From assembly GCF_000973085.1 (NCBI RefSeq), contig NZ_CP011280.1:584642-648641 (forward strand): DNA of 64,000 bases, written 5' to 3'. Of the stretch, positions 4,946-56,089 are shown piece after piece. Position 1 is the first letter of the stretch. Each line of letters opens with the position of its first letter. Origin of the DNA: Sneathia vaginalis. Its GTDB lineage: Bacteria; Fusobacteriota; Fusobacteriia; Fusobacteriales; Leptotrichiaceae. Position numbers and translations under genes: made by a program. Under the pieces are notes generated by a model. The model was not told the origin of the DNA and ran no database searches. It saw only the letters and a list, made by a program, of their open reading frames with translations.

Positions 4946-5222
4946 AAAATAATATATATTTTTTAGTTTGACAGTTTTTAAGGATATAAATAACATATAT
5001 TCTAATATTTATTATAGTTATAGCTTTTTTTGTTTTAAAAAAATGTGGTCATTTTCCTCTAATTTTTAATTAAATGTATAATGAATAAGATTGTAAAAAA
5101 TTATACTGAAATTGATAGGAATATCAAAATATAATGTAAAAGAATAAATATGAAACAGAAGAAAATTATGTGGAAAAAACATATCATTTAGGTTTGTAAT
5201 TTAGTTAATGGAGATAAAGTTA
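4946..5222. other. AT-rich intergenic region without recognisable gene
   Basis: Every frame is broken by stops. The stretch around 4979-5020 (TAAGGATATA followed by TATTCTAATAT) resembles 49001-49041 after tcdA, so both may be remnants of the same lost element. The ribosome site for the next gene (GGAGA, 5210-5214) lies at its end. Confidence 0.35.
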
Positions 5223-6620: not shown

Positions 6621-6622
6621 TA

Positions 6623-6796
6623 GGTATATATGCTGATAGAATAAATCCAATAAAGGTGTATGTAGGTATGACATTAAAAGAGGTTTATGAAGAAAAACCA
6701 CTTTATTTAGGATTAAAATTTGGGGAACAAAATAGTACAAATTTATTAAAAATGTTCCCCAAAGGAGTAAAAGAGAGTGTCTCAAAAAGTCTGTAA
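6623..6796 (+). pseudogene. Unrecognised gene remnant
   Basis: An open frame starts inside the end of the SWIM gene and reads IYADRINPIKVYVGMTLKEV and onward to a TAA at 6794. The peptide looks coding, but there is no ribosome site, and an ATG is available only at 6668 (42 residues). A GGGGAAC/GTTCCCC hairpin lies inside (6722-6760). The following 200 bp to 7005 contain short broken frames and an isolated AGGAGGT with no usable start. I cannot assign a function. Confidence 0.3.
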
Positions 6797-7005
6797 TTTA
6801 AAAAATAGTAAAAATGCTATCTTTTATGATAAAATATATAAATCATAGGAGGTGGCATTTTAGTTATTCCTGAAAAAGAAGTGCCAGAATTTATCTATAA
6901 TTTCTAATTTTATGAAAAATAAATGTTGGAAGAATTATTTATAAATTTATTTTGGAAAACATGAATGGAGTGCATCAGATAAATTAAATTTTTTTTAAGA
7001 ATATT

Positions 7006-7050
7006 AAAAATAGCATCTAACCCTTATAAATAAGAGCAGATGCTATTTTT
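7006..7050. terminator. Strong bidirectional hairpin terminator
   Basis: AAAAATAGCATCT (7006-7018) pairs perfectly with AGATGCTATTTTT (7038-7050). The run of T on the right and the run of A on the left make it usable from either strand. It closes the minus-strand remnant at 7043-7160. Confidence 0.75.
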
Positions 7051-7160
7051 TATTAAATGTAAATAAGTATTCCCCAATACTATCTATATTATCAACCCAC
7101 ATTGTTTTATATTCTTCTTTTTCTTTCGTGCGATTCTAAAATAGATTCTTTCTTATCCAT
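7043..7160 (-). pseudogene. Truncated copy of the small gene that follows the ABC exporter
   Basis: On the minus strand, ATG at 7160 begins MDKKESIL. A frame change leads to EEYKTMWVDNIDSIGEYLF and a TAG at 7043. This parallels the remnant at 9268-9511 (DTFGEHLFTFDKK), so both derive from one small gene that followed the exporter. Here it is frameshifted and cut short by the terminator. Confidence 0.5.
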
Positions 7161-7388
7161 TATATAAATTAGCATAAACATTATTCTTTGCAAGTAATTG
7201 TGAGTGTGTACCACGTTCTATTATTTCACCATTTTCAAGTACCATGATAACATCTGAATCTATTATTGTTGATAGTCTGTGTGCTATGACAAATACAGTT
7301 TTTCCATGCATCAATTTATCCATACCATCTTGTACAATTTTTTCAGTTCTTGTATCGATATTAGATGTTACTTAATCTAGTATTAGAA
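7153..7388 (-). repeat. Orphan copy of the 3' end of the ABC exporter gene (left direct repeat)
   Basis: These 236 bp match 9504-9739 with about seven mismatches, four of them in the last 25 bp at the inner junction. The segment encodes the last ~78 codons of the exporter subunit but has no upstream gene. It marks the left border of an insertion whose right border is the intact exporter gene. Confidence 0.9.
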
Positions 7389-7958
7389 TGTCAAGTAAAA
7401 GTGCCTAATTCATTTGATAAATTTGTAGATATGAAGTATAATAATGGTAAAGAATATGAAGTATTGAAAACTAGATATAAAGCAACAAAGTCTTACACAT
7501 TTTATAAAAAATATCTAAATAAAAGAATGCCTAAAACAATAGATGATTTGATGTCTATAATGAAAAATAGTAATCAGTATGACACATTTAAAAGGGAATA
7601 TGAAACTATAAAGACAATTAAACGGAAAGATTGGAGCAAAAAATATAAGAAAAAAGTTATAAAATGTTATGATGAATTTAAAAAAGAAGGAATAGAATTA
7701 ACTTGGCACGGAGCCTCAAGTGCTACAAATAGGATTGGTTTAAAAGAAATAACAAAGAAAGAAATTATAGAAACTTATAACAAACCTATTAATTATATTG
7801 AATATGATAAAAAGACTAATACTAATAAAAACGTTAGGTATTATGACTTAGTAAGGGTTATTACTAACGAAGAAAATACAGAAGTACTTACGGTAGTTAA
7901 AGATGATAAAGATAGAAGCCAAGGAATGATTAGAAGAGGAAGGTGGAAGAAAAAATGA
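7365..7958 (+). CDS. Orphan toxin C-terminal module, 5'-truncated, DUF4258/BECR-like nuclease candidate
   Basis: Residues from about 100 to the end resemble DUF4258-type RelE/BECR-fold toxin domains: ELTWHGASSATNRIG, a helix ITKKEIIETY, a strand pair ending in KNVRYYDLVRVITN, and a C-terminal GMIRRGRW. The first 90 residues (DMKYNNGKEYEVLKTRYK and YDTFKREYE) look like the short linker repeats found in phage minor-head or polymorphic-toxin proteins. The first ATG lies inside the duplicated exporter segment and has no ribosome site. The delivery part of the protein is therefore missing, and this is probably a displaced toxin tip. The next gene overlaps by 4 bp, as a cognate immunity gene would. 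Toxin function is an inference. Confidence 0.5.
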   Translation: MLLNLVLECQVKVPNSFDKFVDMKYNNGKEYEVLKTRYKATKSYTFYKKYLNKRMPKTIDDLMSIMKNSNQYDTFKREYETIKTIKRKDWSKKYKKKVIKCYDEFKKEGIELTWHGASSATNRIGLKEITKKEIIETYNKPINYIEYDKKTNTNKNVRYYDLVRVITNEENTEVLTVVKDDKDRSQGMIRRGRWKKK

Positions 7959-8206
7959 AATTTATAGATTATATAAATAAAATAAAAAAACATTTATCTA
8001 ATCCAAACAAAACATGCGATGAATATTTTAAGTTTTATATGGAGATAGATTCAAATTATCCATCAAAAAATTTAAGTTATGATGAAGAATATTTTGTAGA
8101 TGATATTAGAGAAGTAACGGAATATACAGAATATTGGAATAAAACTAAACATTTTAAAAAATTAGATGAAGAATTAAAAAAAGTATTAGCTAAATATGGT
8201 TATTAA
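7955..8206 (+). CDS. Probable immunity protein of the orphan toxin
   Basis: 83-residue acidic soluble protein (KFIDYINKIKKHLSNPNK, then DEEYFVDDIREVTEYTEYW). ATG 7955 overlaps the toxin stop by 4 bp and follows AGGTGGAAG. An upstream in-frame ATG at 7943 has no ribosome site. Small size, acidity and tight coupling after a toxin-like ORF are the basis for the immunity call. The family itself is not recognised. Confidence 0.5.
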   Translation: MKFIDYINKIKKHLSNPNKTCDEYFKFYMEIDSNYPSKNLSYDEEYFVDDIREVTEYTEYWNKTKHFKKLDEELKKVLAKYGY

Positions 8207-8224
8207 AATACATGAAGTAAAATC

Positions 8225-8258
8225 AATAGAAATATTAGATTAGAGCAACTGCAAAAGG
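8225..8258 (+). repeat. 34-bp direct repeat, copy A
   Basis: Matches 8444-8477 with one mismatch. The copy encodes SIEILD-stop at the end of a lost ORF, just as copy B encodes KIEILD-stop at the end of the intact small gene. It is the tail of a deleted paralogue. Confidence 0.8.
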
Positions 8259-8267
8259 AAAATTAAA

Positions 8268-8462
8268 ATGATTTCAAGAGAAGAAATGATTAAGGCAGAT
8301 GGAAAGTATGTTAATATAGACTATAAAAATGGTGAAAAATTAAAAAATGTTTATGTTATAGAGTATTTAGATGCCGAATCAGAAGAAGAAGAAAATAGTT
8401 TAGAATTAGATAAAATATTAGTATTACAATCAGAAATAGAAAAAATAGAAATATTAGATTAG
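8268..8462 (+). CDS. Small acidic immunity-like protein
   Basis: 64-residue protein, DGKYVNIDYKNGEKLKN then a Glu/Asp-rich strand and SEIEKIEILD. The fold pattern (short beta strands, acidic insert) resembles small immunity proteins found in toxin arrays, where several related copies often stand in a row. A remnant tail of a second copy lies just upstream (8225-8258). There is no clear ribosome site beyond AAAAGGAAAA at 8253-8262. Function is inferred from context. Confidence 0.45.
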   Translation: MISREEMIKADGKYVNIDYKNGEKLKNVYVIEYLDAESEEEENSLELDKILVLQSEIEKIEILD

Positions 8463-8477
8463 GGCAACTGCAAAAGG
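8444..8477 (+). repeat. 34-bp direct repeat, copy B
   Basis: Partner of 8225-8258. It spans the last codons of the small immunity-like gene and the first part of its terminator. Confidence 0.8.
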
Positions 8478-8488
8478 TTGCTTTTTTG
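8464..8488 (+). terminator. Short intrinsic terminator
   Basis: GCAAC (8464-8468) pairs with GTTGC (8477-8481) and is followed by TTTTTT. The stem is short, so strength is uncertain. Confidence 0.5.
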
Positions 8489-8507
8489 TTGTAGAAAGGA
8501 ATTAGAT

Positions 8508-8711
8508 ATGGAATTAAAGTTTGAAGATATTTATGAATTAGAAAAATTAAGAAATGGCTATATTAAAGATGAGTATCATACTATTAGCAAGTTATATTTT
8601 AATCGTATGATTTTATTTATGTATTTATGTAAAGCTTACAAAAATAAAGCTTGGAAGTCTAAATTTCATGATGATAATTCTATGTTTGTTGTTGGTATAA
8701 CTACACCATAA
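8508..8711 (+). CDS. Hypothetical small protein, probably truncated at its C-terminus
   Basis: 67 residues from ATG 8508, preceded by AAAGGA at 8495-8500. An upstream in-frame ATG at 8478 lies in the terminator and is unlikely. The middle reads YFNRMILFMYLCKAYKNKAW. The last residues FVVGITTP run straight into the hsdR remnant at 8713, so the true C-terminus was probably lost at that junction. The family is not recognised. Its position after the immunity genes suggests it belongs to the same accessory cassette. Confidence 0.4.
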   Translation: MELKFEDIYELEKLRNGYIKDEYHTISKLYFNRMILFMYLCKAYKNKAWKSKFHDDNSMFVVGITTP

Positions 8712-8712
8712 G

Positions 8713-9186
8713 GACTTCATCTCGTTATTTGGTGCGATTCTACGCATGAGAAATCTATTGTGTGCATTTGTTGAATTTGAAGGTAAAGAGATGGTTTCTG
8801 AACGTGATTTACAAGATTACAGTTGAACTTATTAAGCAGATAGAAATCAATATCGACTATATTCTTATGCTTGTTAAGAAGTATCATGACAGTCATTGCA
8901 AAGATAAAGAAGTGCTTGTTACAATCAAAAAGGCTATTGATGCCAGTCCAGAACTTTGTAGTAAGAAAGCATTTTTCTGGTATCAATGATGTTGAGGATG
9001 TTATGACTGAATGACATAATTATGTGTCTGAAAGAGGCTGAAACAAGGAAGTTTATTGAAAATGCCTTTTGTGATGGTGAAATTAAAACGACAGGTACGG
9101 ATATAGATAGGATTATGCCCCCTATATCTCGTTTCAGTGGTGGCAACAGAACTACTAAGAATCAGGGTGTCATTTTTGGTACTTGA
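8713..9186 (+). pseudogene. hsdR: 3' remnant of a type I restriction endonuclease gene (hsdR)
   Basis: Several frames together spell the C-terminal end of HsdR: DFISLFGAILRMRNLL and EGKEMVSERDLQDY, then after a deletion LIKQIEINIDYILMLV, then INDVEDVMTE followed by TGA where the family has Trp, then ETRKFIENAFCDGEIKTTGT and DIDRIMPPISRFSGGNR. At least one deletion, one stop and frame changes are present and no methylase or specificity gene is nearby. It is dead debris of a restriction system. The mosaic frames exclude a functional protein. Confidence 0.85.
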
Positions 9187-9207
9187 TATAATTAGGTATA
9201 AGAAAAA

Positions 9208-9248
9208 GACCACACAGGAGTATTTCTACTCTTGTATGGTCGTTTCTT
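9208..9248. terminator. Hairpin terminator after hsdR remnant
   Basis: GACCACACAGGAGTA (9208-9222) pairs with TACTCTTGTATGGTC (9227-9241), 15 bp with two G-U pairs and a 4-nt loop, then GTTTCTTC. Confidence 0.7.
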
Positions 9249-9267
9249 CATAAAAAAAATGCATAAT

Positions 9268-9511
9268 TCACTTGCCAAATCTAAAGAATTCACGCCAATA
9301 TGGATTTTCTTTACTAAAAATTTCAACTTCTTCCTTAGACATATTTTGTGGATAATCTGCAAATAAATTGTATATTTTCTTTTTATCAAATGTAAATAAG
9401 TGTTCCCCGAAAGTATCTACATTCTTCTTCAAAATATCCACAAAAAATTTCATCTTCATATTCTTCATTATTTAACATACTTTTTGTTACTTCTATTTCT
9501 CTATTATCCAT
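9268..9511 (-). pseudogene. Frameshifted small gene following the ABC exporter
   Basis: ATG at 9511 overlaps the exporter stop and gives MDNREIEVTKSMLNNEEYED. Near 9425 the frame changes and continues as DTFGEHLFTFDKKKIYNLF, ending ENPYWREFFRFGK at 9268. The tail alone can be read as a 66-residue ORF (9268-9468), but the better explanation is one ~80-residue gene with a frameshift, because the duplicated left copy (7043-7160) has the same two parts in order. The function is not recognised. Confidence 0.5.
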
Positions 9512-11243
9512 TATATAAATTAGCGTACACATTATTCTTTGCAAGTAATTGTGTGTGTGTACCACGTTCTATTATTTCACCATTTTCAAGTACCATGATA
9601 ACATCTGAATCTATTATTGTTGATAGTCTGTGTGCTATGACAAATACAGTTTTTCCATGCATCAATTTATCCATACCATCTTGTACAATTTTTTCAGTTC
9701 TTGTATCGATATTAGATGTTGCTTCATCAAGTATTAAAACAGGCGTATTACGTAATTTTGCACGTACAAGGCATAATAATTGTTTTTGTCCTTGAGAGAG
9801 TGTATCAGTATTACCAGATATGTATGTATCATAACCTTTTTCAAGTTGAGAGATAAAATGATGAGCACCTATTTGTTTTGCTACTTCTATGACCTCTTCT
9901 TTTGAAATAGTTTCATCTGAGTATCTAATATTATCTAAGATTGTTCCAGAAAAGAGTATACTATCCTGTAAAACAACAGTTATATTTTTTCTTAAATCAG
10001 ACTTATTAATCCTTCTAATATCAATACCATCAAAAGTAATAGTTCCACTATCAATTTCATAGAATCGGTTAATAAGGTTAGTTATTGTGGTTTTACCACT
10101 ACCTGTTGGACCAACGATAGCTATTTTTTGACCATATTTTGCATACATATTTATATTTTTCAATATTTTTTTATCTTTGTTATATGAAAAGTCAACGTTA
10201 ATAAACTCAATGTTTCCCACACATTTTACCTTTTCATTATTCTCTAATATCCAGTATCCATCTTTTAAGTATACCTTACCTTCATCAATTTCATTGTCTA
10301 GGTCCATAAGTTCAAAGACTCTTTTAGCTCCAGCAAGTGCTGAATTAACCATACCAACTTCAAAAGAAAAGATAAATAGGGGCATAGCAATTAGTCTACT
10401 TAATAGTAAAAAACTTCCTATTGTACCTATTGAAGTATGGAATACAGTTCCAACAATTGCTATACATGCATATTGTAAGAAGTTTATTGCCCCTATAACG
10501 GGGAAGATAGTATTTGAATATATGTTTGCACTTACTATACTTTTTAACCATGCATTATTTAAACGCTTAAATATTGAATTATTTCTTTTTTCATAGTTAA
10601 ATAGTTTTACAATATTTTGACCATTAACGCTTTCTTCAATGTAACCGTTTATAGATCCAATATTTTTTTGGTTTGTGTCATAAGATTTAATGCTGTATTT
10701 TGAGAATAAATATATTATTAAATACGATAGGGCACTAAAGAATATTACAACGATTGCAAGCTTATATGAAATATATATCATAATAGCTAATAGAGCAATC
10801 ATTTCGACTATACCACTAAAAATATTGAACATAGAAAATTCCAAGAAAGTGTTCATGGAGTCTATATCGTTTGTAAACTTACTCATAATATCTCCATGTT
10901 CATGTGTGTCAAAGAATACAATGGGTAAATTTTGTAGTTTTTCAAAAGCTTTTTTCCTAATACCGTACATAACATCTTGTGAAAGTGGTACTGCTAGTAT
11001 GATATTAAGTTCTTCAAAGCAAACAGATATTAGGTAAATCAAACCTAAAATTGCAATATATTTAGGTAAAAGATCTAATCTTTTAGGAATTAAAACTTTA
11101 TCGATAATAACTTGTATTAGTTTTGTTGAATAAGTACTACAAATTTTAAAAATTAGTATAGAGATAATTATTGTAAAAAATTTCAATGGGCTTTTTTTGA
11201 AGACCATATGTATCATTCGTTTAAGAGCTTTACTATTCTTCAT
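9504..11243 (-). CDS. Heterodimeric ABC exporter, consensus-site subunit (TM288-like)
   Basis: Six-helix exporter half (about residues 15-310) fused to an ATPase domain. The Walker A is GPTGSGKTT, the signature is the deviant LSQGQKQ, Walker B is VLILDEATSNID with catalytic Glu, and the H-loop is VIAHRLST. A deviant signature with an intact Walker B is the mark of the partner that completes the degenerate ATP site in TM287/288-type heterodimers. ATG 11243 follows AAAGGAGGTAATTTTG. The longer in-frame start at 11321 would lie far inside the upstream gene. It overlaps the partner gene by 11 bp. The substrate is unknown; the family exports drugs or lipids. Its 3' end is duplicated at 7153-7388. 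Confidence 0.9.
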   Translation of the reverse strand: MKNSKALKRMIHMVFKKSPLKFFTIIISILIFKICSTYSTKLIQVIIDKVLIPKRLDLLPKYIAILGLIYLISVCFEELNIILAVPLSQDVMYGIRKKAFEKLQNLPIVFFDTHEHGDIMSKFTNDIDSMNTFLEFSMFNIFSGIVEMIALLAIMIYISYKLAIVVIFFSALSYLIIYLFSKYSIKSYDTNQKNIGSINGYIEESVNGQNIVKLFNYEKRNNSIFKRLNNAWLKSIVSANIYSNTIFPVIGAINFLQYACIAIVGTVFHTSIGTIGSFLLLSRLIAMPLFIFSFEVGMVNSALAGAKRVFELMDLDNEIDEGKVYLKDGYWILENNEKVKCVGNIEFINVDFSYNKDKKILKNINMYAKYGQKIAIVGPTGSGKTTITNLINRFYEIDSGTITFDGIDIRRINKSDLRKNITVVLQDSILFSGTILDNIRYSDETISKEEVIEVAKQIGAHHFISQLEKGYDTYISGNTDTLSQGQKQLLCLVRAKLRNTPVLILDEATSNIDTRTEKIVQDGMDKLMHGKTVFVIAHRLSTIIDSDVIMVLENGEIIERGTHTQLLAKNNVYANLYNG

Positions 11244-19499: not shown

Positions 19500-20394
19500 A
19501 ATATTCGCAAAGAAAGATGAGATTTTTCTAAAATGTAAAGAAAAGATATACTATTTTAAGTTAATAGAATTAGAAAAAGACTTGGAAGATATAATATTTC
19601 AGTGTAATTTAGACAAAAAAGAAAAGATTTATTTAATACTTGATTTTGAAGCAAATGAAAGCCAATACTATATCGACATATTCACTTTCTATAACTTCAA
19701 AATTAGAAAGTTAGTAGAATTTCAAGAGATATTGTCTATGTTGAATGAAGAAATAATATATTTAGGAGAAAAAAGTAGCTTACATATCAAGGATAAAAAA
19801 ATTGAAAAAATAGATGTATGTTTAAGTGATGAATTTGACTATAACGGTATAAGAAGTATTTATGTAAGAAAAGAGAATATAGAAGAAATTTTCGATATAA
19901 TCGAAAAGGTGAAAATAAGGAAAATATATGCCATAAATTTATTAAAAAAAGATCAGATATTAATATTAATTTCTGCTATGTTCCTTATCTCTAGCTACAT
20001 AACAACAACAATCTTGTATAGTACTGATAAATTAGAAAAGAGTATACAAGCAAATAGGGTAAAAAAAGGTAAAATAGACGCAGATATATTAAATACTAAA
20101 GAGTATATAAAAAAATTGGAAAAAGAGATAAGTGAAAATGAAGTTGTACAAGATTTAAGTTTAGAAATTAAAAATACTGAATACTATACTTTAATTAAGG
20201 ATATGATATCGTATACAAAAAAGGGCATAGACTTAAAAAGTATTGAATATATAAATAACACACTAATAGTTGAAGGACAAGCAGACGACTATAACAGTGT
20301 AATTAATAACTTTAAAGACTTCACTATTGATTACTTAGTAAGTGAAAATGATAGGATAGGTTTTAAGATACTAAAGGAGGGTTTAAATGACTAA
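19492..20394 (+). CDS. GspL / PilM-PilN-like inner-membrane assembly protein
   Basis: 300 residues. A cytoplasmic part (about 1-155, strand-helix pattern that could be a reduced actin-like GspL/PilM domain) is followed by one transmembrane helix (ILILISAMFLISSYITTTIL). Then comes a coiled coil and a periplasmic ferredoxin-like domain with IEYINNTLIVEGQADDYNSV, the pattern of PilN. It would link the platform and ATPase to the PilO-like partner encoded next (8-bp overlap). Divergent, so the call rests on topology and context. Confidence 0.7.
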   Translation: MIKIFAKKDEIFLKCKEKIYYFKLIELEKDLEDIIFQCNLDKKEKIYLILDFEANESQYYIDIFTFYNFKIRKLVEFQEILSMLNEEIIYLGEKSSLHIKDKKIEKIDVCLSDEFDYNGIRSIYVRKENIEEIFDIIEKVKIRKIYAINLLKKDQILILISAMFLISSYITTTILYSTDKLEKSIQANRVKKGKIDADILNTKEYIKKLEKEISENEVVQDLSLEIKNTEYYTLIKDMISYTKKGIDLKSIEYINNTLIVEGQADDYNSVINNFKDFTIDYLVSENDRIGFKILKEGLND

Positions 20395-45156: not shown

Positions 45157-48054
45157 ATGAAAGCAATAAATAAAGATATATTGAGGGAAATTGTAAAGTC
45201 TAAAAGTAGATTTTTAACCCTAATCTTGATTGTTTTTTTAGGCTCTTTAACTTATGTAGGTTTAAATTCAACAGTATATGACATAAAAAAATCTGTAGAT
45301 ACGACAATTAAAAAGAATAATATGTATGATATTAGACTTGATGCACCAGCTGGTTTTACAGATTATGATATAAATTTACTTAAAAATTTTAAGGATGTAG
45401 ATAAGATTGTATTCTATAACGAAACTATAGACTATGATAAAAAGATTCTATACATAGAATCAGAAAATACAAAATACGATATGTCATATTTACAAAATAA
45501 GATAATAAAATCAGGTATAAACATTAAAAAAGTCAGTTTTGTTGCACCAAAAAAGGATAGTTTAAAAAATGTTGCTGTAATATATTTGAAAAATAGTAAA
45601 AAGTATAATACTTTTAGTAAGAAATATCTAGATTATGTGAAAAATGTTAAGGAAAATTTAAATGTATTACTTGCTAAAAGACCACTTGAGCGAAAAGAAG
45701 AGATAAATAAGGAATTAGATGAAGGTTTAAATAAGTTAAATCAAGGGTTAGACAAATTAAATAGTAAAAGAGAAGACTTAATTAAAAATAGGAATAAAAT
45801 TCTAATTAGTGAAGGCAAATTAAAAAAAGAAAAAATAAAGTTTTTAAATGCAAAGCAAGAAATTTTAAATGGTAAAGCAGTAATAAAAGAAAATGAAGAA
45901 AAAATAAATGAAAAAACTGCTACTTTAAATGGAAAATATGCTGAAGTACTAGATGGTTTAAATAAAATAAATCAAAATTTAAATAAGATGCAAGAAGGTC
46001 TTGCAAAAATCAGTGTAGAAGAAAAAAAGATAGATGAAAATGAAAAGAAGTTAAATGATAATTTAGGCTATTTAAGTAAGGAAAAGATACAGGAATATAG
46101 AAAAAAGATAAGCGATGGTAGAGCTAAATTAAACTTAGAAAAAGAAAAGATAAATAATACTTTGGAACAAAAAAAATCTCTAGAAGGAATAAAAGCACAA
46201 CTAGAAAAAGGATTAGCTGAGTTAAAAAATGCTTCTAATACACTAGAGGATAAAGAAAGAAATTTATCAAATCAAGAAAAAGAATATAATGAAAAATATA
46301 GTGAAAATTTAAATAAATTTAATGTTTCATATGAAAAATTAAAAGAGGCTAAAATAAAGCTAGTTAAAGGTCATAAAGATATAAGCAAAGTTAAGATGGA
46401 ATTGCAAAATAAAAAGAATGATCTTGATAAGAAAAAGAAATATTTATTAAAGCCAGCTTATGTAGTAGGTACAAGATATGATAATAACGCTTTTTTAACA
46501 TTATATAATAATATAAGATCAACTAAGATTATGTGTTATCTATTCCCTGCTTGCTTTTTTGTAATAGGACTTTTTGTTACAGTAACTACTATGATTAGAT
46601 TTTCAACAGAACAAAGAGTTACTATAGGAGTATATAAGTTTTTAGGATATAAAAATAAGTATATTATAAAAAAATTCTTAATATATGGTTTAGTTCCAAC
46701 AATAATAGGACTATTTTTAGGAAGTTTAGGTGGAACAATAGTACTTCCAAAAATAATAGCACCAACATTAGTTGTTGACTTTATCCCTATATTCAAAAAT
46801 ATTAAAATATATTTTGTTCCTACATATTCTATTGTAATAGCCATTGCATTTATACTCTCAATAACAATAGCAATACTTGCTGTTGTAATTAAACAATTGA
46901 ATGAAAAGGTTGTAGACCTTTTAACAGGTAGAGAAAATGAAAAAGGTAAGAGAATATTACTAGAAAAAAGTATATTATGGAAGAGAATGAATTTTTCTAA
47001 AAAAATACTATTTAGAAACCTACTTAAGTATAAGGGAAGAATGTTTATGACCATACTTGGAATAGGAGCTTGTACAGCATTAATATATCTAGGTATATCA
47101 TTACATTATTCAATATCAGATATTACAAGATATCAATATAATAAAGTTAAAAAATATGATGCTGTTGTATATTTCCAATACGATGCACCTATTGAAAAGA
47201 AAGAAGAATATTTTAAGAATATATCTAAGTTTTCAAAGATATTTAAACTATACACTGTGCCTGTAAAGTACAGTAAAGATGGTCTTGATTATCAATTATC
47301 ACATGAGTATTTGATAAGTAATAATGATGAAGACTTTTTCAATTTTAAATTAAATCAAAATGAGTCTGTTATATCAATCAAAACATCTAAGATATTACAT
47401 AAGAAAAAAGGTAGTAATATTACAGTATATGATATATATAATAGACCTAATAAAATTAATGTAGATGGTGTATTTAAAAACTATATCTACCAATATATTT
47501 ATACAAAAGATACAACAAAAGAACCAAATGCAGTATTAGTTAAGTTTAATAATAAGACAAAAGATATAGAAAAATTATTAGATAATGAGATAGTATATAG
47601 CATTAACACTAAGGAAGATACAAAAGAATTTTTTGAAAAACAAATTAAGAGTTTATCTAATGTAGTAGTATTAATGATAATACTTGGTGCAAGCCTATCC
47701 TTTATTGTTACATATAATCTTGGGAATATTAATATAATAGAAAGAAAAAGAGAATTAAGTACATTAAAAGTTTTAGGTTATAGAAAAAGTGAAATGTATT
47801 TGTACATCTTTAGGGAAATATTTATACTTGCCATAATCTCAACATTATTTGGCTTGTATATAGGGCGTAAGTTACATTTGTTCTTAGCACTAATGTTTAA
47901 GACATCACCTATACAACCAGTAGTTGCATTAAACTATAAGCCATTTTTATTCTCATTTGTATTATCAATGTTTTTTGTAGTCTTAGTCTGCAGCTTATTA
48001 ATCCAAAAAATAAATAAAATAAATATGATAGAAGCATTGAAAGCGAGTGAATGA
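45157..48054 (+). CDS. FtsX-family ABC permease with long extracytoplasmic coiled coil
   Basis: 965 residues. Transmembrane helix 1 (FLTLILIVFLGSLTYVGLNS) is followed by an extracytoplasmic region containing a long heptad-rich coiled coil (about 180-420, for example NKELDEGLNKLNQGLDKLNS). Then come three helices of the first FtsX domain (about 445-590), a second extracytoplasmic domain, and the second FtsX helix set ending LLIQKINKINMIEALKASE. Such permeases drive envelope processes (lipoprotein release, peptide resistance, amidase activation) rather than substrate import. ATG 45157 follows GAGTGG; GTG 45148 overlaps the upstream gene. Confidence 0.9.
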   Translation: MKAINKDILREIVKSKSRFLTLILIVFLGSLTYVGLNSTVYDIKKSVDTTIKKNNMYDIRLDAPAGFTDYDINLLKNFKDVDKIVFYNETIDYDKKILYIESENTKYDMSYLQNKIIKSGINIKKVSFVAPKKDSLKNVAVIYLKNSKKYNTFSKKYLDYVKNVKENLNVLLAKRPLERKEEINKELDEGLNKLNQGLDKLNSKREDLIKNRNKILISEGKLKKEKIKFLNAKQEILNGKAVIKENEEKINEKTATLNGKYAEVLDGLNKINQNLNKMQEGLAKISVEEKKIDENEKKLNDNLGYLSKEKIQEYRKKISDGRAKLNLEKEKINNTLEQKKSLEGIKAQLEKGLAELKNASNTLEDKERNLSNQEKEYNEKYSENLNKFNVSYEKLKEAKIKLVKGHKDISKVKMELQNKKNDLDKKKKYLLKPAYVVGTRYDNNAFLTLYNNIRSTKIMCYLFPACFFVIGLFVTVTTMIRFSTEQRVTIGVYKFLGYKNKYIIKKFLIYGLVPTIIGLFLGSLGGTIVLPKIIAPTLVVDFIPIFKNIKIYFVPTYSIVIAIAFILSITIAILAVVIKQLNEKVVDLLTGRENEKGKRILLEKSILWKRMNFSKKILFRNLLKYKGRMFMTILGIGACTALIYLGISLHYSISDITRYQYNKVKKYDAVVYFQYDAPIEKKEEYFKNISKFSKIFKLYTVPVKYSKDGLDYQLSHEYLISNNDEDFFNFKLNQNESVISIKTSKILHKKKGSNITVYDIYNRPNKINVDGVFKNYIYQYIYTKDTTKEPNAVLVKFNNKTKDIEKLLDNEIVYSINTKEDTKEFFEKQIKSLSNVVVLMIILGASLSFIVTYNLGNINIIERKRELSTLKVLGYRKSEMYLYIFREIFILAIISTLFGLYIGRKLHLFLALMFKTSPIQPVVALNYKPFLFSFVLSMFFVVLVCSLLIQKINKINMIEALKASE

Positions 48055-48728
48055 TGGCAACTAGTTATGAACGATTAGAAATATTAGTAAAAAAAGAAGG
48101 CATAGAAAAATTAAATAAATCAAGTTGTATAATATTTGGTGTTGGAGGAGTAGGTTCTTTTGCTGCTGAAGCAATAGCAAGAAGCTTTGTAGGGAATATA
48201 TCCTTAGTAGACTTTGACACTGTTGATATTACTAATATAAATAGACAAATACATGCTAATATAAATACCGTAGGTAGACTAAAAGTAGAGCTTATGAAAG
48301 AAAGAATATTAAGCATTAATCCCAATTGTAATATAAATATATATACTGAAAAGCTTAGTAAAGAAAATATAGAAAAGTTTTTTGATAAAAAATACGATTA
48401 TGTAATTGATGCAATTGATGATATGGATGCCAAAATAGCTTTAATTAGTTATTGTTTGTATAAAAAAATAAATATAATATCATCAATGGGGTTAGCTAAT
48501 AGATTAGATCCAACAAAAGTCTACATAGGTAAATTAAAAAATACCATAGGTTGTGGACTTGCAAGAAGATTAAGAAAAGAATTTAAGGATAAGAATATCA
48601 ATGTAGTTGCATCAACAGAACACGCAATAAAACACGATAAACCCCATCCAGGAAGCGTTAGCTTTGTACCATCTGTTGGGGGATTGATGTTAGCAAGTTA
48701 TGTTGTGAGAAAAATATTAGAAGAATAG
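48051..48728 (+). CDS. tcdA: tRNA threonylcarbamoyladenosine dehydratase TcdA
   Basis: E1-like enzyme that cyclises t6A to ct6A in tRNA. The 225 residues have the nucleotide-binding IIFGVGGVGSFAAEAIARSF, VDFDTVDITNINRQIHA, YVIDAIDDMDAKIALISYC, and the C-terminal GSVSFVPSVGGLMLASYVVR. The catalytic Cys of related E1 enzymes is not required in TcdA. The start overlaps the permease stop by 4 bp; ATG 48054 is an alternative one codon later. A terminator follows at 48744. Confidence 0.95.
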   Translation: MMATSYERLEILVKKEGIEKLNKSSCIIFGVGGVGSFAAEAIARSFVGNISLVDFDTVDITNINRQIHANINTVGRLKVELMKERILSINPNCNINIYTEKLSKENIEKFFDKKYDYVIDAIDDMDAKIALISYCLYKKINIISSMGLANRLDPTKVYIGKLKNTIGCGLARRLRKEFKDKNINVVASTEHAIKHDKPHPGSVSFVPSVGGLMLASYVVRKILEE

Positions 48729-48743
48729 TAAGTATATAATGGA

Positions 48744-48779
48744 GTGTATAAATTATAAAAATATTTATACACTTTATTT
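48744..48779 (+). terminator. Terminator after tcdA
   Basis: AGTGTATAAAT (48744-48754) pairs perfectly with ATTTATACACT (48764-48774), then TTATTTT. Hairpin and flank resemble 4901-4945. Confidence 0.75.
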
Positions 48780-49475
48780 TAAAATAATATATTTTACTAT
48801 TAATGGAAATGAAAAGAAATCATGAATTGTTATAAAAATAAGAAAGAAATAAATATAGTGAAGCAAGTAATGCAATAGCAGATGTATTCTTTAATAATAT
48901 TAATCTGAAAATACCCAAGAAATGCAAGATATTCTTAAAGATATATTTTGTAAAATGTTTCAAGCTAAAGTTATGCTGTTAATAAAATAATTATTTCTTA
49001 AGGATATAGAGATAATCATATGAATATTTATTCTAATATATAGAGTAAATATTTGATGAAATAGGTGTAAAGTAACAAAATCAATATTTAATAATTGCAT
49101 ATTATAAGAAATTTACAATATAATTCAGGAGTATTTTTGAGCAAGAATATAGTGATTAAGGTACTTTATTTACGATAACCGAACTATACAAAAGTTAGAA
49201 TAGTAATAATTAGTTATATTATATATAAAATTTATATAAATTAAAAAATATATATGAATTACTTGAAAAAACTTTTACAAATAATTTAAAAAATATATTT
49301 TTTATTTATGGTTAAAAAATAGATTATTTTTTTTTAGATAAAGTATTGATTTTTTTTTATAATAAAAATACTAAAAGTAATTTGTAGAACAAAGTATTTT
49401 TTTTATACTGGTTAATAAACTATAATATATATTTAAATAAAATAAATTGAAAAAAATAAAAAAAATGATATAATT
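48780..49475. other. Gene-free AT-rich region with weak coding remnants
   Basis: About 700 bp without an intact gene. A short frame near 48910-48990 reads NTQEMQDILKDIFCKMFQAK, which vaguely recalls the start of IS256-type transposases but is too short to assign. The part at 49001-49041 resembles 4979-5020 behind the CRISPR array. The rest is homopolymer-rich and leads into the RiPP cluster promoter. Confidence 0.45.
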
Positions 49476-49484
49476 TATAATAAA
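49476..49484 (+). promoter_or_regulatory. Extended -10 promoter of the peptide cluster
   Basis: TGATATAAT (49476-49484) is an extended -10 element with no clear -35 at the right distance. AAGGAGAG (49491-49498) follows as the ribosome site of the peptide gene, so the leader would be very short. Confidence 0.6.
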
Positions 49485-49505
49485 AATATAAAGGAGAGAT
49501 TTTTT

Positions 49506-49673
49506 ATGAAACAATTGAACAAATCAACAATTGATTTTTTTCAAAATGATGAAGATGATTGGTGTATAACATGTGACGCACGCGATAGATGTGATTCTTG
49601 CGACGCTACTGATTGGGGAGATAGCGATTGTGGAAATTGTGATTTTGGAAGAGAATGCAAACACATCGGTTAG
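49506..49673 (+). CDS. Cys/Asp-rich RiPP precursor peptide (ranthipeptide-like, C-x3-D motifs)
   Basis: 55 residues. The leader-like part MKQLNKSTIDFFQNDEDDW is followed by a core with seven Cys (20, 23, 29, 32, 42, 45, 51). Five of them have Asp exactly four residues later (C20-D24, C23-D27, C29-D33, C32-D36, C42-D46). The core shows three copies of an eight-residue unit: CITCDARD, CDSCDATD, CGNCDFGR. C-x3-D is the acceptor pattern for radical-SAM thioether crosslinks in freyrasin-type ranthipeptides, and a radical SAM/SPASM gene and exporters follow. A strong ribosome site supports translation. A small zinc-binding protein is the alternative. Confidence 0.75.
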   Translation: MKQLNKSTIDFFQNDEDDWCITCDARDRCDSCDATDWGDSDCGNCDFGRECKHIG

Positions 49674-49687
49674 TATGAGAAGTGGTG

Positions 49688-51397
49688 ATGTTTTTGGGTA
49701 CTTTTTATAAGTTAATTGAGTTTTGTTTAAAAATAAATTTTAAAAATTTTTCAAAATTATTAATATTAGTTATAATAAAAATTTTATTATTTTTTGCAAC
49801 TGTATTTTTGCTGAAACAAATGATAAATTTACTTGTTGAAAAACAAGTGAATATAGTTTTTTATTATCTGTTTTACTATATTATTACATTTTTATTTTCT
49901 AAATGTATCGTTGTTTATTATGATTATATCCAACAAATATTTAAATTAGAATTGGAATATAAGATAAATAGTATATTTATAGATAAGTGTAAAAATATGT
50001 CGATGATTGACTTTGAGAATACAGAAACTTATAATAGTATCCAAAAAACACTACGTGATATTAATGTTCCATATGCAATGATTTTAAACATTTTAGATGT
50101 TATTACCAATATATCAATGTTAATTGGGAGTATAATTATTTTAGCAAAATGGAAGTTATATACAGTAATTTATTTAGTTATTGTTCCGATATGTTGTGTT
50201 TATCTAGTTTTTATCATTGGTAAAAAAGAATATGAAATGTCAAAAATTAGGATTATAAATGTTCGCAAATCTAATTATTATAGGTTTTTATTGACAGATA
50301 TAAATTCATATAAAGAAAATAAAATATTTAGATTAGGAGTTTTTTTTACTAAGAATTTTATTGCAAATATAGATAAAATTAATATTAAAGATAAATTGAT
50401 ATTTAAATATCTATTTATTAATGGAATAATTTTTCAGATTTTAGAAACAATAATGTTATTTTTTACTGTTTACATAGTTTTGAAAGATATTATTAATTCT
50501 TTTATAACAATTGGTACAGGATATCTATATTTAAATTGTATTTTAAATGTTGTTAATTCTAGTGAAAAAATATCAAAAAACATTTCAAATTTATTAAATA
50601 AAAAACTATATTTAGATGAACTTTTTGAATTTATATATAAAAAAGACCCGAATATTAATAATAAAAAATATATTAAGATAAAGAAAATTGAAACTATTGA
50701 ATTTAAAAATGTATGGTTTAAATATAGAGAGAATTTAGAATATGCAATAAAAAATATAAATTTAAAGATAAATGCAAATGATAAAATAATAATAATTGGT
50801 GAAAACGGATCAGGTAAAAGTACATTTATAAAATTATTGTGTGGATTTTATGATAATTATGAAGGTGAAATATTAATAAATGGAATTTCTATGAAAGAAA
50901 TTGAAAAAGAGTCTTTGTATAATAATTTAAGTGTTTTATTTCAAGATTATATGAGGTATGAATTTAATGTTGAAGATAATATATGTATAAGTGATTTGAA
51001 TGAAAAAGATAAAATTATTAATTTTATAAAAAAACTCAATCAACAAAATATTCTTAAATTTTTAGATTATAAAGGTAATATTAAATTAGGTCATAAATTT
51101 GATGATGGTTATGAAATTTCTAATGGTGAATGGCAACAGATTGCATTTTCTAGAGCAATATTTAAGCGTCATAGTTGCTTAATATTAGATGAGCCTACAA
51201 CTTCAACAGATATTGATATTGAAAATAATATATTTAATATAATTAATGATATCCAAAATAATATTGTTATTTTAATTACACATAAATTATATCTTTTAAA
51301 TAATAGTTATAAATGGATTGTATTTTCTAATGGAAAAATACTTAAAAAAAATGAAATAAAAAAAATGTTAAAATATAAAGAATATTATGGTAAATAG
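49688..51397 (+). CDS. ABC exporter (transmembrane and ATPase domains) of the peptide cluster
   Basis: 569 residues. An exporter-type membrane domain of about six helices (about 15-300) is followed by an ATPase domain with Walker A IGENGSGKSTFIKLLCG, Q-loop SVLFQDYMRYE, signature ISNGEWQQIAFSRAIFKRHS and Walker B LILDEPTTSTD. There is no N-terminal C39 peptidase, so it would export the peptide without cleaving a leader. ATG 49688 is 14 bp after the precursor stop; GTG 49682 is less likely. Transport of the modified peptide is an inference from position. Confidence 0.85.
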   Translation: MFLGTFYKLIEFCLKINFKNFSKLLILVIIKILLFFATVFLLKQMINLLVEKQVNIVFYYLFYYIITFLFSKCIVVYYDYIQQIFKLELEYKINSIFIDKCKNMSMIDFENTETYNSIQKTLRDINVPYAMILNILDVITNISMLIGSIIILAKWKLYTVIYLVIVPICCVYLVFIIGKKEYEMSKIRIINVRKSNYYRFLLTDINSYKENKIFRLGVFFTKNFIANIDKINIKDKLIFKYLFINGIIFQILETIMLFFTVYIVLKDIINSFITIGTGYLYLNCILNVVNSSEKISKNISNLLNKKLYLDELFEFIYKKDPNINNKKYIKIKKIETIEFKNVWFKYRENLEYAIKNINLKINANDKIIIIGENGSGKSTFIKLLCGFYDNYEGEILINGISMKEIEKESLYNNLSVLFQDYMRYEFNVEDNICISDLNEKDKIINFIKKLNQQNILKFLDYKGNIKLGHKFDDGYEISNGEWQQIAFSRAIFKRHSCLILDEPTTSTDIDIENNIFNIINDIQNNIVILITHKLYLLNNSYKWIVFSNGKILKKNEIKKMLKYKEYYGK

Positions 51398-51421
51398 ATA
51401 GAAAATTAAGGAATGATATGT

Positions 51422-52288
51422 ATGATTATAAAAATAGAGAAATTATCAAAAAAATATAAATTAAATAAAAATTTTTCTATAAAAGATATAAATACACAAA
51501 TTTGTAATGGGGTATATGGACTTATAGGTGAAAATGGTTCTGGTAAAAGTACGTTTCTAAAGACGATTGCCACAATTTTACCCATACAAAGTGGAAATAT
51601 AAGTGTTGATGGTGAAGATGTATCTAAAAATATATTAGAATTTCGAAAGAAAATAGGATATTTACCACAAGATTTTGAATTTTTTGAGAGCCTGACATGT
51701 TATGAAATGCTTGAGTATATATCAACATTAAAACAAAATAAGGTTATAGAGGAAGAAATTGATAATTTATTAAGAGAATTTAATCTTTTAGATAAAAAAT
51801 ATTGCAAAATAAAAACCTTATCTGGTGGTATGAAACAAAGATTAGCTATATTACAAACAATTTTAGGGGGTTCTAAAATAATAATATTAGATGAGCCTAC
51901 AAATGGACTTGATCCCATAGAAAGATTAAGATTTAGAAATATTATAACTTCCTTGTCAAAAGATAGAATAATTATTATATCTTCTCATATAATTTCTGAT
52001 ATAGCTATACTATGTGAGAATATAGGTATAATGAAAAAAGGGGAACTTGTATATACAGGATCTGTTGATAATTTAATAGAAAAAATGCAGAATAAGATAT
52101 ATATTAAAGAAATAAAACAATATGAAAAAATAGAAGAATATAAGAATTTAATCTCGATATTAAGAAAAAAGAATTCTTATGAAATAAGAGTGTATTCTAA
52201 GAATGAAAATACAGGTTTTATTAAAGCCGAACCAACTCTTGAAGATGCCTATTTTTATATTATGAATTTAGGTGGTCAGCTTGAATAA
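51422..52288 (+). CDS. ABC transporter ATP-binding protein of the peptide cluster
   Basis: 288-residue ATPase with Walker A YGLIGENGSGKSTFLKTIAT, Q-loop IGYLPQDFEFFESLTCYEML, signature LSGGMKQRLAILQTILGGSK, Walker B IIILDEPTNGLDP and H-loop ISSHIIS. The C-terminal 80 residues are the accessory domain common in ABC-2 ATPases for self-immunity. ATG 51422 is chosen because AAGGA lies 9 nt upstream; ATG 51413 directly abuts it. The membrane partners are probably the next two genes. Immunity or export is likely. Confidence 0.88.
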   Translation: MIIKIEKLSKKYKLNKNFSIKDINTQICNGVYGLIGENGSGKSTFLKTIATILPIQSGNISVDGEDVSKNILEFRKKIGYLPQDFEFFESLTCYEMLEYISTLKQNKVIEEEIDNLLREFNLLDKKYCKIKTLSGGMKQRLAILQTILGGSKIIILDEPTNGLDPIERLRFRNIITSLSKDRIIIISSHIISDIAILCENIGIMKKGELVYTGSVDNLIEKMQNKIYIKEIKQYEKIEEYKNLISILRKKNSYEIRVYSKNENTGFIKAEPTLEDAYFYIMNLGGQLE

Positions 52289-53669
52289 TACGTATTTTAA
52301 GCTAGTAAAGATATTTGTTAATGAGGGATATAAAAATATAAAAAATTATGTAATATTCCATACAATACTAATTTTATTTCTACTATTTTTACAATTTTTT
52401 GATATTCATGATGTTAAAACTCAAATGTTTGCTAATTTATTTGCAGTTATTTTTATAATGATTAATTCATATTATTCATGTAAGATATTTTTTAGTGATA
52501 AGAGAAGTTGGTTAGTTTTATTTTCAAAATCAAAAGAAGTTATAATATTGTGTTTTTTAATAAATATACCTTATTTTTTATTTATAAATTTACAATTAGT
52601 TATGTTAGGTGCTAAAGCCTATATTGCTATAATGTATGGCTTGTTTCAATATTTATTTTCGATTTCATTTGGAATATTTTTAGGGGTGTATTTTAATATA
52701 ATTCCTATATTTATACTGGCGATCATTAATTTTATATTTTTTAATGTATATAATGCAACATCGTATAATAATGTATTATCTGTAAATACATTTTTGTATA
52801 ATCTTGATGTTCTGAATTATTCAAGTATTTTATCAATTTTATGTATTAGCATATTTAGTTTTTTATGTATAACATTCTATTTTTTTAAGGAGAAAAAATT
52901 TCTATATTTATTACTTATTCCTGTTTTTATCAATGTATTTTCCATAGGCTATGAATACTTAAGTTATATGAAAGTAAAAAAGGAAAGTTATAAAAGCTTT
53001 AATATAGATGGATATATGTGCTATTATAAAGGATTAAAAGAGAAAGATGCTAAGCTATTGGGTGAAATATTAGTATATTCTTTAGAAGAATATGACAAAA
53101 TACTAGATGTTAGTGAAAAAAGAAAAATATATATAGAAAAAGCATATTTAAACGATGTATTATGGATAAGTAAGAGTAAACCAAAATCTTTTTTATCAGA
53201 TAAAGATAAAGTTACTATAAATGTTTTATCTGATGCAATGATTAATTTTAATAATATAGATATTTTTTCAAAAAATTATGTAGAGGATGTTATAGATGTA
53301 GATAATTATATAAATGTACCTAAAAATAGATATCAAAGACATTTATTACAAGGTATATCAAGTGCAATTGGTAGAAATGTTGGTACTAGATTGAAATATA
53401 ATAAACTAAAAAACTATTATGATTATTATTTGAATTTTTTCTATAATACAAAATATAGACCTAATAGGTTTAATTATGTATATAATGTTGCTGGATATAT
53501 TTATATAAAAAATCCTGATGAATTTAAGAGACTATATTTAGAGAGTTATAAAATAAATAATGATAAAGAATTTATAGAATTATTGAAAAATAAATTTAAT
53601 AATTTATACTACGATAAAGATGTTAATTATATTATAACTGAAGCATTTAGAGGTAAAAAACATGAATAG
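52281..53669 (+). CDS. Polytopic membrane protein with large C-terminal domain (ABC-2 permease-like)
   Basis: 462 residues. About six or seven hydrophobic helices occupy the first 225 residues (VIFHTILILFLLFLQFF, FLINIPYFLFINLQLVML, IPIFILAIINFIFFNVY, FLYLLLIPVFINVFSIGY). A soluble, Tyr/Asn/Lys-rich domain follows (about 230-462) with no HExxH or other protease motif that I can see. TTG 52281 is preferred since AGGTGG is 6 nt upstream; GTG 52272 is inside that site. It overlaps the ATPase gene and the next gene by 8 bp each. Likely the permease partner of the ATPase. Confidence 0.7.
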   Translation: MNNTYFKLVKIFVNEGYKNIKNYVIFHTILILFLLFLQFFDIHDVKTQMFANLFAVIFIMINSYYSCKIFFSDKRSWLVLFSKSKEVIILCFLINIPYFLFINLQLVMLGAKAYIAIMYGLFQYLFSISFGIFLGVYFNIIPIFILAIINFIFFNVYNATSYNNVLSVNTFLYNLDVLNYSSILSILCISIFSFLCITFYFFKEKKFLYLLLIPVFINVFSIGYEYLSYMKVKKESYKSFNIDGYMCYYKGLKEKDAKLLGEILVYSLEEYDKILDVSEKRKIYIEKAYLNDVLWISKSKPKSFLSDKDKVTINVLSDAMINFNNIDIFSKNYVEDVIDVDNYINVPKNRYQRHLLQGISSAIGRNVGTRLKYNKLKNYYDYYLNFFYNTKYRPNRFNYVYNVAGYIYIKNPDEFKRLYLESYKINNDKEFIELLKNKFNNLYYDKDVNYIITEAFRGKKHE

Positions 53670-54285
53670 AGTAAAAAATATATTATACTATATATTGGTT
53701 TATATTGTGTTTGGTATAATAGATACAAAGTTTCATTTTATTTTGACAACAGAGTATATGTTTTCATATAGATTTATTACACATCAAATAATAATATTAT
53801 TTACTATACCATATATTGTTAATAAGTATATAAATGAAAAAAATATTAGAATTATTAGCAATTATTTAAAGTTGTATATAAAAGATTTAGAAAAATATAT
53901 AGGCAGAATATTGTTTGATGTAGTTTTTACAAATATATTTTTTTTCTTGATAGGACAAGTGGTATTTTTTATAATAAATAGAAATATTAATATACATTAT
54001 GCGTTATTTATGATTATTGAAATATTGGTATCTATAATAATAATTTTTTCTATGTCTTTATATTTTAATAAAAATATTATAGTTTATGGAATTTATTACA
54101 TTTTGTTAATATCAGGTTTAGTTGTTAATAAATGTTGGGTATCATTAGTATTGACCATAAAATTATTAGATGATAATATACTTTATTTATATTTAAGTAG
54201 AATTATAATTCTAGTATTATTTAGTTCAATGTATATTTTAATAAAGAATAGATTTATAAGAGATATAGAAGGAGATGAATTATGA
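53662..54285 (+). CDS. Polytopic membrane protein of the peptide cluster
   Basis: 207 residues, almost entirely hydrophobic, with about six helices (ILYYILVYIVFGIID, THQIIILFTIPYIV, FFFLIGQVVFFII, FMIIEILVSIIIIFSMSLYF, YGIYYILLISGLVV, IIILVLFSSMYILI). No enzyme motif. It overlaps its neighbours by 8 and 4 bp. It could be a second permease subunit or an immunity protein of the peptide system. Confidence 0.7.
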   Translation: MNRVKNILYYILVYIVFGIIDTKFHFILTTEYMFSYRFITHQIIILFTIPYIVNKYINEKNIRIISNYLKLYIKDLEKYIGRILFDVVFTNIFFFLIGQVVFFIINRNINIHYALFMIIEILVSIIIIFSMSLYFNKNIIVYGIYYILLISGLVVNKCWVSLVLTIKLLDDNILYLYLSRIIILVLFSSMYILIKNRFIRDIEGDEL

Positions 54286-55643
54286 AATTAATGGACATTT
54301 ATCCTAAAAATGAGAAATATTATCCAAATGTTATAAAACAAATAAATGGAGAATTTTATTTATATAATTTAATAACAAATGGGATTTTTAAAATCAATAA
54401 AGAAGTTTCGAATATTATACATTATAATAAAAATATAAATATTGAAAAAGATAAAGATATAAAAACTTTTTTAGAAAATAATTATATATTAAGAAATAAA
54501 AAAAATGACGATAAATTAAATAGCATATATGATAAAAAGTTAAATAGTAAATTTAAATTTGAACCATCAGGTCTAACATTAATGGTTTCACAAGAATGTA
54601 ATTTAAGATGTAAGTATTGTTATGGAGAAGGAGGTGAATATAATAATAAAGGTAAAATGACCTTTGAAATAGCAAAAAAAGCAATAGATTATTTTGTGAA
54701 AGTTTCAAAAGTAGATAAAGTTGGAATATGTTTTTTTGGTGGAGAACCATTAACTAATTTTGTGTTGATTAAAGAAATTATTGATTATACAAAAAGTATA
54801 GAGAATTATATAAATAAAAAATTCCATTTTTCTATAACAACTAATGGGACACTATTAACAAATAAAATCAAAAAATTTTTATTAGATAATAATATATTTA
54901 TAACCATAAGTTTAGATGGTACAAAAGAAGTTACAGATAGTAATAGATATTATATATCAAAAAAAGGTGTTTATGATGTAATAAAATCAAATATTAATAA
55001 ATTAGATAAAAAAGTAGTGGTAAGAGCGACAATAGCACCTCCAAATTATGATATGAAAAAAAGTATAAATCATTTAGTTAAAGATTTGAAATTGAATTCA
55101 GTAGCATGGGCAGTTGCAGATAATTTATTAACAGAAGAGGATTTTTATAAAATATCAGAAAGTTATAATAAATTATTAGATGAGTTATGGAATACAATAA
55201 AATTAAAAAAATATAATGAAGTAAAGAAATACAGTATGTTTATGAATAATTTGAGGAAATTCTCTAAAGATGGTATACGTATAAAAGGTTGTGGAGCTGC
55301 TAATAATATGATAGCTATAGATATTAATGGTGATGTGTATCCTTGTCATAGGTTTGTAGGATTAAAAAGATATGTTTTAACTAATGTAGATTCAAATACA
55401 AAGTTTAATGAGAAAATATTTAGTAAAATGGATTTAAAAAATTTTGATAAATGTAAATATTGTATAGCTAGGAACATATGTGGTGGTGCATGCATAAATG
55501 AAAATGTATATGCTAATTTGAGTATAAATAAACCATCTGAAAAACATTGTAATTTTACTAAGAAAATGGTAGAGAAATTATTTGAGATTTACATATCTTT
55601 AACTGAAGAAGATAAACTAAATTTATTTGGTGATTTAAAATAG
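54282..55643 (+). CDS. Radical SAM/SPASM peptide-modifying enzyme
   Basis: 453 residues. The radical SAM cluster motif is C106-NLR-C110-KY-C113 in LTLMVSQECNLRCKYCYGEG, followed by ICFFGGEPL (GGEP SAM site), SITTNGTLLT and ITISLDGTKEVTD. The SPASM region near the end supplies more Cys for auxiliary Fe-S clusters: IKGCGAANNMIAIDINGDVY, PCHRFVG, DKCKYCIARNICGGACINEN and EKHCNF. The first 95 residues could hold a peptide-recognition domain. Such enzymes make thioether crosslinks between Cys and other residues. Here the C-x3-D precursor at 49506 is the likely substrate. It overlaps the membrane protein gene by 4 bp. Confidence 0.92.
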   Translation: MKLMDIYPKNEKYYPNVIKQINGEFYLYNLITNGIFKINKEVSNIIHYNKNINIEKDKDIKTFLENNYILRNKKNDDKLNSIYDKKLNSKFKFEPSGLTLMVSQECNLRCKYCYGEGGEYNNKGKMTFEIAKKAIDYFVKVSKVDKVGICFFGGEPLTNFVLIKEIIDYTKSIENYINKKFHFSITTNGTLLTNKIKKFLLDNNIFITISLDGTKEVTDSNRYYISKKGVYDVIKSNINKLDKKVVVRATIAPPNYDMKKSINHLVKDLKLNSVAWAVADNLLTEEDFYKISESYNKLLDELWNTIKLKKYNEVKKYSMFMNNLRKFSKDGIRIKGCGAANNMIAIDINGDVYPCHRFVGLKRYVLTNVDSNTKFNEKIFSKMDLKNFDKCKYCIARNICGGACINENVYANLSINKPSEKHCNFTKKMVEKLFEIYISLTEEDKLNLFGDLK

Positions 55644-55694
55644 GGTATTAATATATACTAAATGAAAAATTAATTAGAAAAATAATAAAAAATA

Positions 55695-55703
55695 TGCTAA
55701 AAT
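55695..55703 (+). promoter_or_regulatory. Extended -10 promoter
   Basis: TGCTAAAAT (55695-55703), in front of the secreted protein gene. It suggests that gene is separate from the peptide cluster. Confidence 0.55.
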
Positions 55704-55720
55704 ATGTTGAGGTGATAGAT

Positions 55721-56089
55721 ATGAAAAAGTTAATTGTGCTATTATCAACTTTAATTACAATTCTATCTTTTTCGTTTGTTAATGGGACTTATTCTGCTAA
55801 GAAAAGTAACGGTTCATCAACTTCAGAAATGACAATCATATGTAGAAATGGTAAGATAATGTCTGTATCATTTGATGAAAAGATGGCAAATGGAAATAGT
55901 TTAAAATTAAGTGACAACTTCTTTGCCAGTCAAACATTGAACTTATCACAAAGTATAAGAGAACGTAACACTATTGATGGTGTTAAAATTGATTTAGGTA
56001 ATAATAATTATTCATCAGATTTTAAAGAATTATTTAGATTTTTAGAAGATAAAGCAAAAAAAGGTGAAGTAGGTTCATTTAGATTGTAG
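55721..56089 (+). CDS. Small secreted protein, FMN-binding / membrane-immunogen-like
   Basis: 122 residues with a signal peptide (KKLIVLLSTLITILSFSFVN). The mature part starts GTYSAKK and includes EMTIICRNGKIMSVSFDEKM, resembling the repeat of the FMN-binding / major membrane immunogen group. The conserved Thr that carries covalent FMN in that family is not obvious, so cofactor binding is doubtful. ATG 55721 follows GAGGTGATAG; the longer frame from 55694 starts in the promoter. A terminator follows. Confidence 0.7.
   Translation: MKKLIVLLSTLITILSFSFVNGTYSAKKSNGSSTSEMTIICRNGKIMSVSFDEKMANGNSLKLSDNFFASQTLNLSQSIRERNTIDGVKIDLGNNNYSSDFKELFRFLEDKAKKGEVGSFRL

Follow-up and report, generated by a model that had tools for sequence, protein, structure and literature searches.

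Freyrasin, a Paenibacillus peptide of the family considered here, carries six Cys-Asp S-Cbeta thioethers (PMC8172795), and its maturase PapB favours CX3D over CX0D and CX6D in 'nested' peptides (PMC9413430). We compared with this system a six-gene operon in a 64,000-nucleotide stretch of the Sneathia vaginalis genome, the whole of which is called the window below. The results give us good confidence that it is a biosynthetic operon for ranthipeptides of the freyrasin (PapA/PapB) family and that it was acquired horizontally. The chemistry is already known from Paenibacillus freyrasin; what is new is the insertion site and the single occurrence among 98 genomes of the phylum, which extends a known peptide-stapling chemistry to a phylum with no other case in that survey. 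Sneathia is a urogenital bacterium, and the product could matter there in competition or signalling; no paper was found that connects Sneathia to either radical SAM enzymes or biosynthetic gene clusters.

The operon begins with a precursor gene of 55 codons (49506..49673, ATG start, plus strand as for all features below), preceded by the ribosome-binding site AAAGGAGAG at 49490..49498, read directly from the sequence. Further upstream, a consensus scan showed a promoter-like TTGAAA-16-TATAAT (49447..49474, 11/12) with TG ahead of the second hexamer, an element which was equally frequent in shuffles and which its position alone recommends. Eight bases past the precursor starts an ABC exporter of 571 aa with its permease fused to its ATPase (49682..51397), recognised by family search and by an orthologue (371 bits) in L037, a Lachnospiraceae contig from a goat caecum metagenome; a C39 peptidase domain gave no match in it. 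It is followed by the ATPase of an ABC-2-type transporter (291 aa, 51413..52288, Pfam ABC_tran), which has orthologues in L037 and in freyrasin-type Paenibacillus clusters and may serve self-protection or export. Two membrane proteins come next, one of 465 aa (52272..53669) with a soluble C-terminal domain containing a conserved Y(K/R)G motif, and a second permease of 207 aa (53662..54285; L037 orthologue, 51 bits). The larger one, 29% identical to the L037 protein and with positional equivalents in Paenibacillus, is common to Lachnospiraceae and Paenibacillus clusters; neither protein matched a Pfam or NCBIfam family. A degenerate peptidase domain was considered for the larger one, whose AlphaFold model was poor (pLDDT 52.5). 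The radical SAM/SPASM maturase gene (54282..55643) is the last. All six genes are intact and on one strand, the later ones overlapping by a few bases, and no Rfam RNA or terminator was found at the locus. The tight operon described in the first-pass annotation, with its ribosome site, C39-less exporter, ATPase, two membrane proteins and radical SAM gene, was thus confirmed in every element.

The genomic surroundings of the operon were examined in relatives. A ThiF-family gene (48051-48728) and the gene at 55694-56089, which flank the operon, lie next to each other in a congener (G092) and in a family member of another genus (G065), where the empty site is clean. In the window, synteny and junction sequences place an inserted segment at 48729..55692, with an approximate right edge, made up of the operon and an AT-rich stretch of 777 bp. 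This stretch (48729-49505, 15.7% GC), running from the ThiF-family gene to the precursor, is absent in relatives; it showed neither a likely gene nor an Rfam match nor edge repeats, and is possibly a residue of the insertion. No target-site repeats were seen at the insertion edges. In the phylum survey, which covered one genome per species, the operon was present in 1/98 genomes, and the 97 others contained neither an enzyme over the family cut-off nor a precursor. Since the operon is inserted exactly between neighbours that are adjacent in relatives and occurs in only one of these genomes, it was probably gained horizontally, as far as sequence comparison can tell, and this is the simplest reading of its presence in a fusobacterium. 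The clean insertion site points to a recent gain. The named relatives of the cluster are Bacillota. Some related clusters are plasmid-borne, in Paraclostridium and Anaerococcus, and plasmids of this type are a possible transfer route. The operon genes have 17-24% GC and the precursor 37%, against 25.6% for the window, and base composition was left out as evidence for transfer. As a side observation, the mechanical ORF start of the gene at 55694-56089 is probably 27 bases early, a conserved start MKKLIV lying at ~55721 behind GAGGTGAT.

Homologous operons, which the first-pass annotation had proposed to look for, were found. Each of the six proteins has a counterpart in L037, which also encodes an S8 subtilase, and the same gene set, in different order, is present there and in the freyrasin-type Paenibacillus loci L038/L151-L154/L159. 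Other PapB-family loci (L143-L150, L155-L158, L181-L186 of Peptoniphilaceae, and the plasmid loci L033 and L034) have different transporters. In L034, on the Anaerococcus prevotii plasmid pAPRE01, which was typed as conjugative, the PapB-family cluster adjoins a class III lanthipeptide cluster (4995-10758), so that two RiPP systems lie on one mobile element. Scans of genome contigs and viral contigs with a single radical SAM sequence gave no matches, and homologues were recovered when an alignment was used instead; the precursor alone gave no matches against plasmids.

The operon encodes no leader protease, neither of the S8 type nor any other, and elsewhere in the host genome there is just one partial S8 match. 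The cluster might therefore be silent or decaying, acquired but no longer making the finished product now that the protease of its nearest relative is missing, and a decayed cluster does exist elsewhere: in one Paenibacillaceae genome (G598; L191, C210 ~19982-20125) a deletion left the precursor intact and fused a piece of the radical SAM start in frame to the C-terminal half of the exporter. We regard this as unlikely for the window, where six intact genes stand close together or overlap, the catalytic Cys are conserved and a ribosome site is present; moreover, no relative of the L037 S8 protease was seen in the freyrasin-type loci of Paenibacillus either. The subtilase of L037 (11726-12949), placed straight after the ranthipeptide genes, is a candidate leader peptidase for the branch formed by the window and L037.

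The maturase is one basis for assigning the operon to the freyrasin family. It scored 370.6 bits against NCBIfam NF047865 (rSAM_PapB, PapB family ranthipeptide maturase; cut-off 340), whereas in five other genomes the top-scoring enzymes, of SCIFF type, reached 269-308 bits, under that cut-off. The score of the window enzyme against the SCIFF model TIGR03974 was 227.9 bits (cut-off 425), and the nif11 and QhpD models were likewise far beneath their cut-offs. In a maximum-likelihood tree the window enzyme fell in the PapB group (23 rows), split from the SCIFF-type enzymes with support of 100/100, and paired with the L037 enzyme, also at 100/100; it is 36% identical to the PapB adjoining PapA. 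The full CxxxCxxC and SPASM Cys noted at first pass were borne out, as C106-C110-C113 (CX3CX2C) and Cys 337, 355, 391, 394, 400, 404 and 423 were invariant in 12 homologues. The predicted model (pLDDT 84) had CteB (5wgg) as its best PDB match, and its N-terminus appeared as three strands followed by three helices, an arrangement typical of a RiPP recognition element (RRE); the segment is called RRE-like on this basis. An Acetoanaerobium hit (H3) proved to be an ordinary SCIFF locus and was set aside.

The fold shared with CteB is common to other SPASM maturases, and the Cys-Asp bond is assigned by homology only, so an enzyme making S-Calpha sactionines or SCIFF-like Cys-Thr rings rather than Cys-Asp S-Cbeta links might be considered. 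We hold this to be very unlikely, given that the enzyme exceeds the PapB cut-off but stays far under those of the SCIFF, nif11 and QhpD models, and that the acceptor Asp is conserved at +4. On sequence grounds, the 55-aa precursor and its radical SAM/SPASM enzyme belong to the freyrasin/PapB family, and the family call of the first-pass annotation was right: family model, phylogeny, homologous operons, conserved Asp +4 and predicted fold all agree with it.

The precursor was then compared with its relatives. Residues 1-19 (49506..49562) form a leader region with the KQ(L/I)N start common to PapA. As first reported, the peptide has seven Cys, and Asp stands exactly at +4 of five of them (C20, C23, C29, C32 and C42) and not of C45 or C51; these Cys-X3-Asp motifs are encoded in one operon with a PapB-family enzyme, the radical SAM gene being last. 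The claim of three copies of an eight-residue unit held for two, CITCDARD (20-27) and CDSCDATD (29-36), both C-x2-C-D-x2-D, while the third repeat is CGNCDFGRE (42-50), a CxxCDxxxE with Glu at +5 of the second Cys. C51 has no acceptor, with no acidic residue downstream. When the precursor was shuffled, five CX3D were no more than moderately unexpected, given how much Asp the peptide contains (p about 0.0015-0.008, varying with what is shuffled), and more than two CX3D were found in no other reading frame among all frames of the window. For this sequence pattern it is homologue conservation, not shuffling, that settles the matter. Among 16 distinct family precursors, Asp was found at +4 of 59/84 Cys, at +3 of 0/84 and at +5 of 6/82. 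The first pick of precursors demanded CX3D or CX3E and was hence biased; when the choice was repeated with Asp ignored, using just the Cys content and the distance from the enzyme gene, the same peptides came back in 25/28 loci and no rival Cys-rich family emerged. Homologous precursors thus keep the Asp at +4 together with the Cys, contrary to what the first-pass annotation had named as grounds against its reading.

Against the family model of precursors (NF037957, freyrasin_like) the peptide scored 22.7 bits (E=7e-5), under the cut-off of 30, and so did its L037 orthologue fall short; in Paenibacillaceae, most precursors beside PapB-family enzymes are also under 30. It is therefore the enzyme, the core motif and the operon that support family membership, and of the RiPP model searches suggested earlier the enzyme part succeeded while the precursor part did not. 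In 400 Paenibacillaceae genomes the better freyrasin_like hits were in genomes with PapB; the sole good hit without a radical SAM neighbour, a second circumstance that would have spoken against the first-pass reading, is the visibly deleted cluster of G598, and a weaker hit in G701 has an internal stop. That the peptide stays un-cross-linked in the cell, where its three CxxC pairs would hold a metal and organise the fold, or that it forms disulfides once exported, is scarcely credible: zinc or iron could be bound by seven Cys with three CxxC pairs among them, and any pairing leaves one Cys over, yet a metal site needs no Asp exactly at +4, where homologues conserve it, the better hits of the Paenibacillaceae model keep company with PapB bar that one deleted cluster, and the homologue PapA is fully cross-linked (PMC8172795).

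The predicted cross-links of the freyrasin-type peptide were examined next. C20-D24 with C23-D27 (49563..49586) and C29-D33 with C32-D36 (49590..49613) are predicted as two crossed units, and C42-D46 is predicted in a third (49629..49655). The crossed topology had been put forward as unusual, which did not hold. The precursor of locus L130 scored 65.6 bits to NF037957, and the 3+ ion of one stretch of it, m/z 844.1197, equals the published msPapA value, which identifies this precursor as PapA or something very near it. It holds CYFCDTRD and CKACDASD, the same interleaved C-x2-C-D-x2-D unit twice, and since six bonds are reported for this peptide and a preference for nested CX3D is published, the crossed topology of the window peptide would be the known freyrasin arrangement.

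The third CxxCD unit was found only in the window and L037 among the collected precursors. L037 has the same spacing as the window, and L126, L128 and L034 have CX4D. In vitro, PapB took CXnD with n=1-5 to completion (PMC9413430), whereas a review gives CX4D as not cross-linked in PapA variants (PMC8172795). C45-E50 (CX4E) is a possible sixth ring. Taken further, the lineage of the window and L037 might make a peptide with three crossed bicycles in a row, the last of them closed by a Cys-X4-Glu link (S-Cgamma) of natural origin, and with a lone C-terminal Cys that could serve dimerisation or attachment; the recipient of the cluster would be a fusobacterium that is probably associated with humans. 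We offer this combination as a tentative and rather doubtful proposal. Whether enzymes of the PapB type take Cys-X4-Glu, a spacing on which the published results disagree, is a question for which this third unit is a test case provided by nature.

From the computed enzyme family, conserved Asp +4, shared operon and insertion site, we infer the following course for the window peptide. The PapB-like enzyme would use its N-terminal RRE-like segment to bind the KQ(L/I)N leader and form a 5'-deoxyadenosyl radical at its CX3CX2C cluster. It would then remove the Asp beta-hydrogen and join the Asp carbon to the sulfur of the Cys that precedes this Asp by four residues, giving C20-D24, C23-D27, C29-D33, C32-D36 and C42-D46, five predicted rings with two crossed pairs. 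Export of the product would fall to the fused ABC protein, and the separate ABC ATPase with the two permeases probably provides self-protection or a second export route. As the operon has no leader protease, another protease would act or the peptide would keep its leader. The product is very probably, judging by its sequence, a small peptide with several sulfur bridges as staples.

Compared with known systems, the window enzyme shares with the SCIFF/thermocellin system (CteA/CteB) the RRE and SPASM maturase fold; that system differs in its Cys-Thr link and precursor type, and the window enzyme lies outside the SCIFF clade. The nearest relative is L037, whose radical SAM enzyme is 52% (tblastn) and whose precursor is 64% identical, the latter with all seven Cys, all five Asp +4, the third CxxCDxxxE unit with its Glu and the lone last Cys; unlike in the window, its radical SAM gene is first and the subtilase follows. 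The Paenibacillus ottowii type (L038, L134-L137) has the same fused ABC exporter, ABC ATPase, two permeases and radical SAM gene, with a core of CVLCDTHDRCVNCDATDW against CITCDARDRCDSCDATDW in the window, and differs in gene order and in the last third of the core. The freyrasin cluster of Paenibacillus polymyxa (papA/papB; L130/L147) likewise has a PapB-family maturase, a KQ(I/L)N leader start and two consecutive crossed C-x2-C-D-x2-D units with Asp at +4 of Cys. PapA, of 49 aa, has six Cys, all in CX3D, whereas the window precursor counts five CX3D among its seven Cys and adds a third CxxCD unit that ends with Glu at +5.
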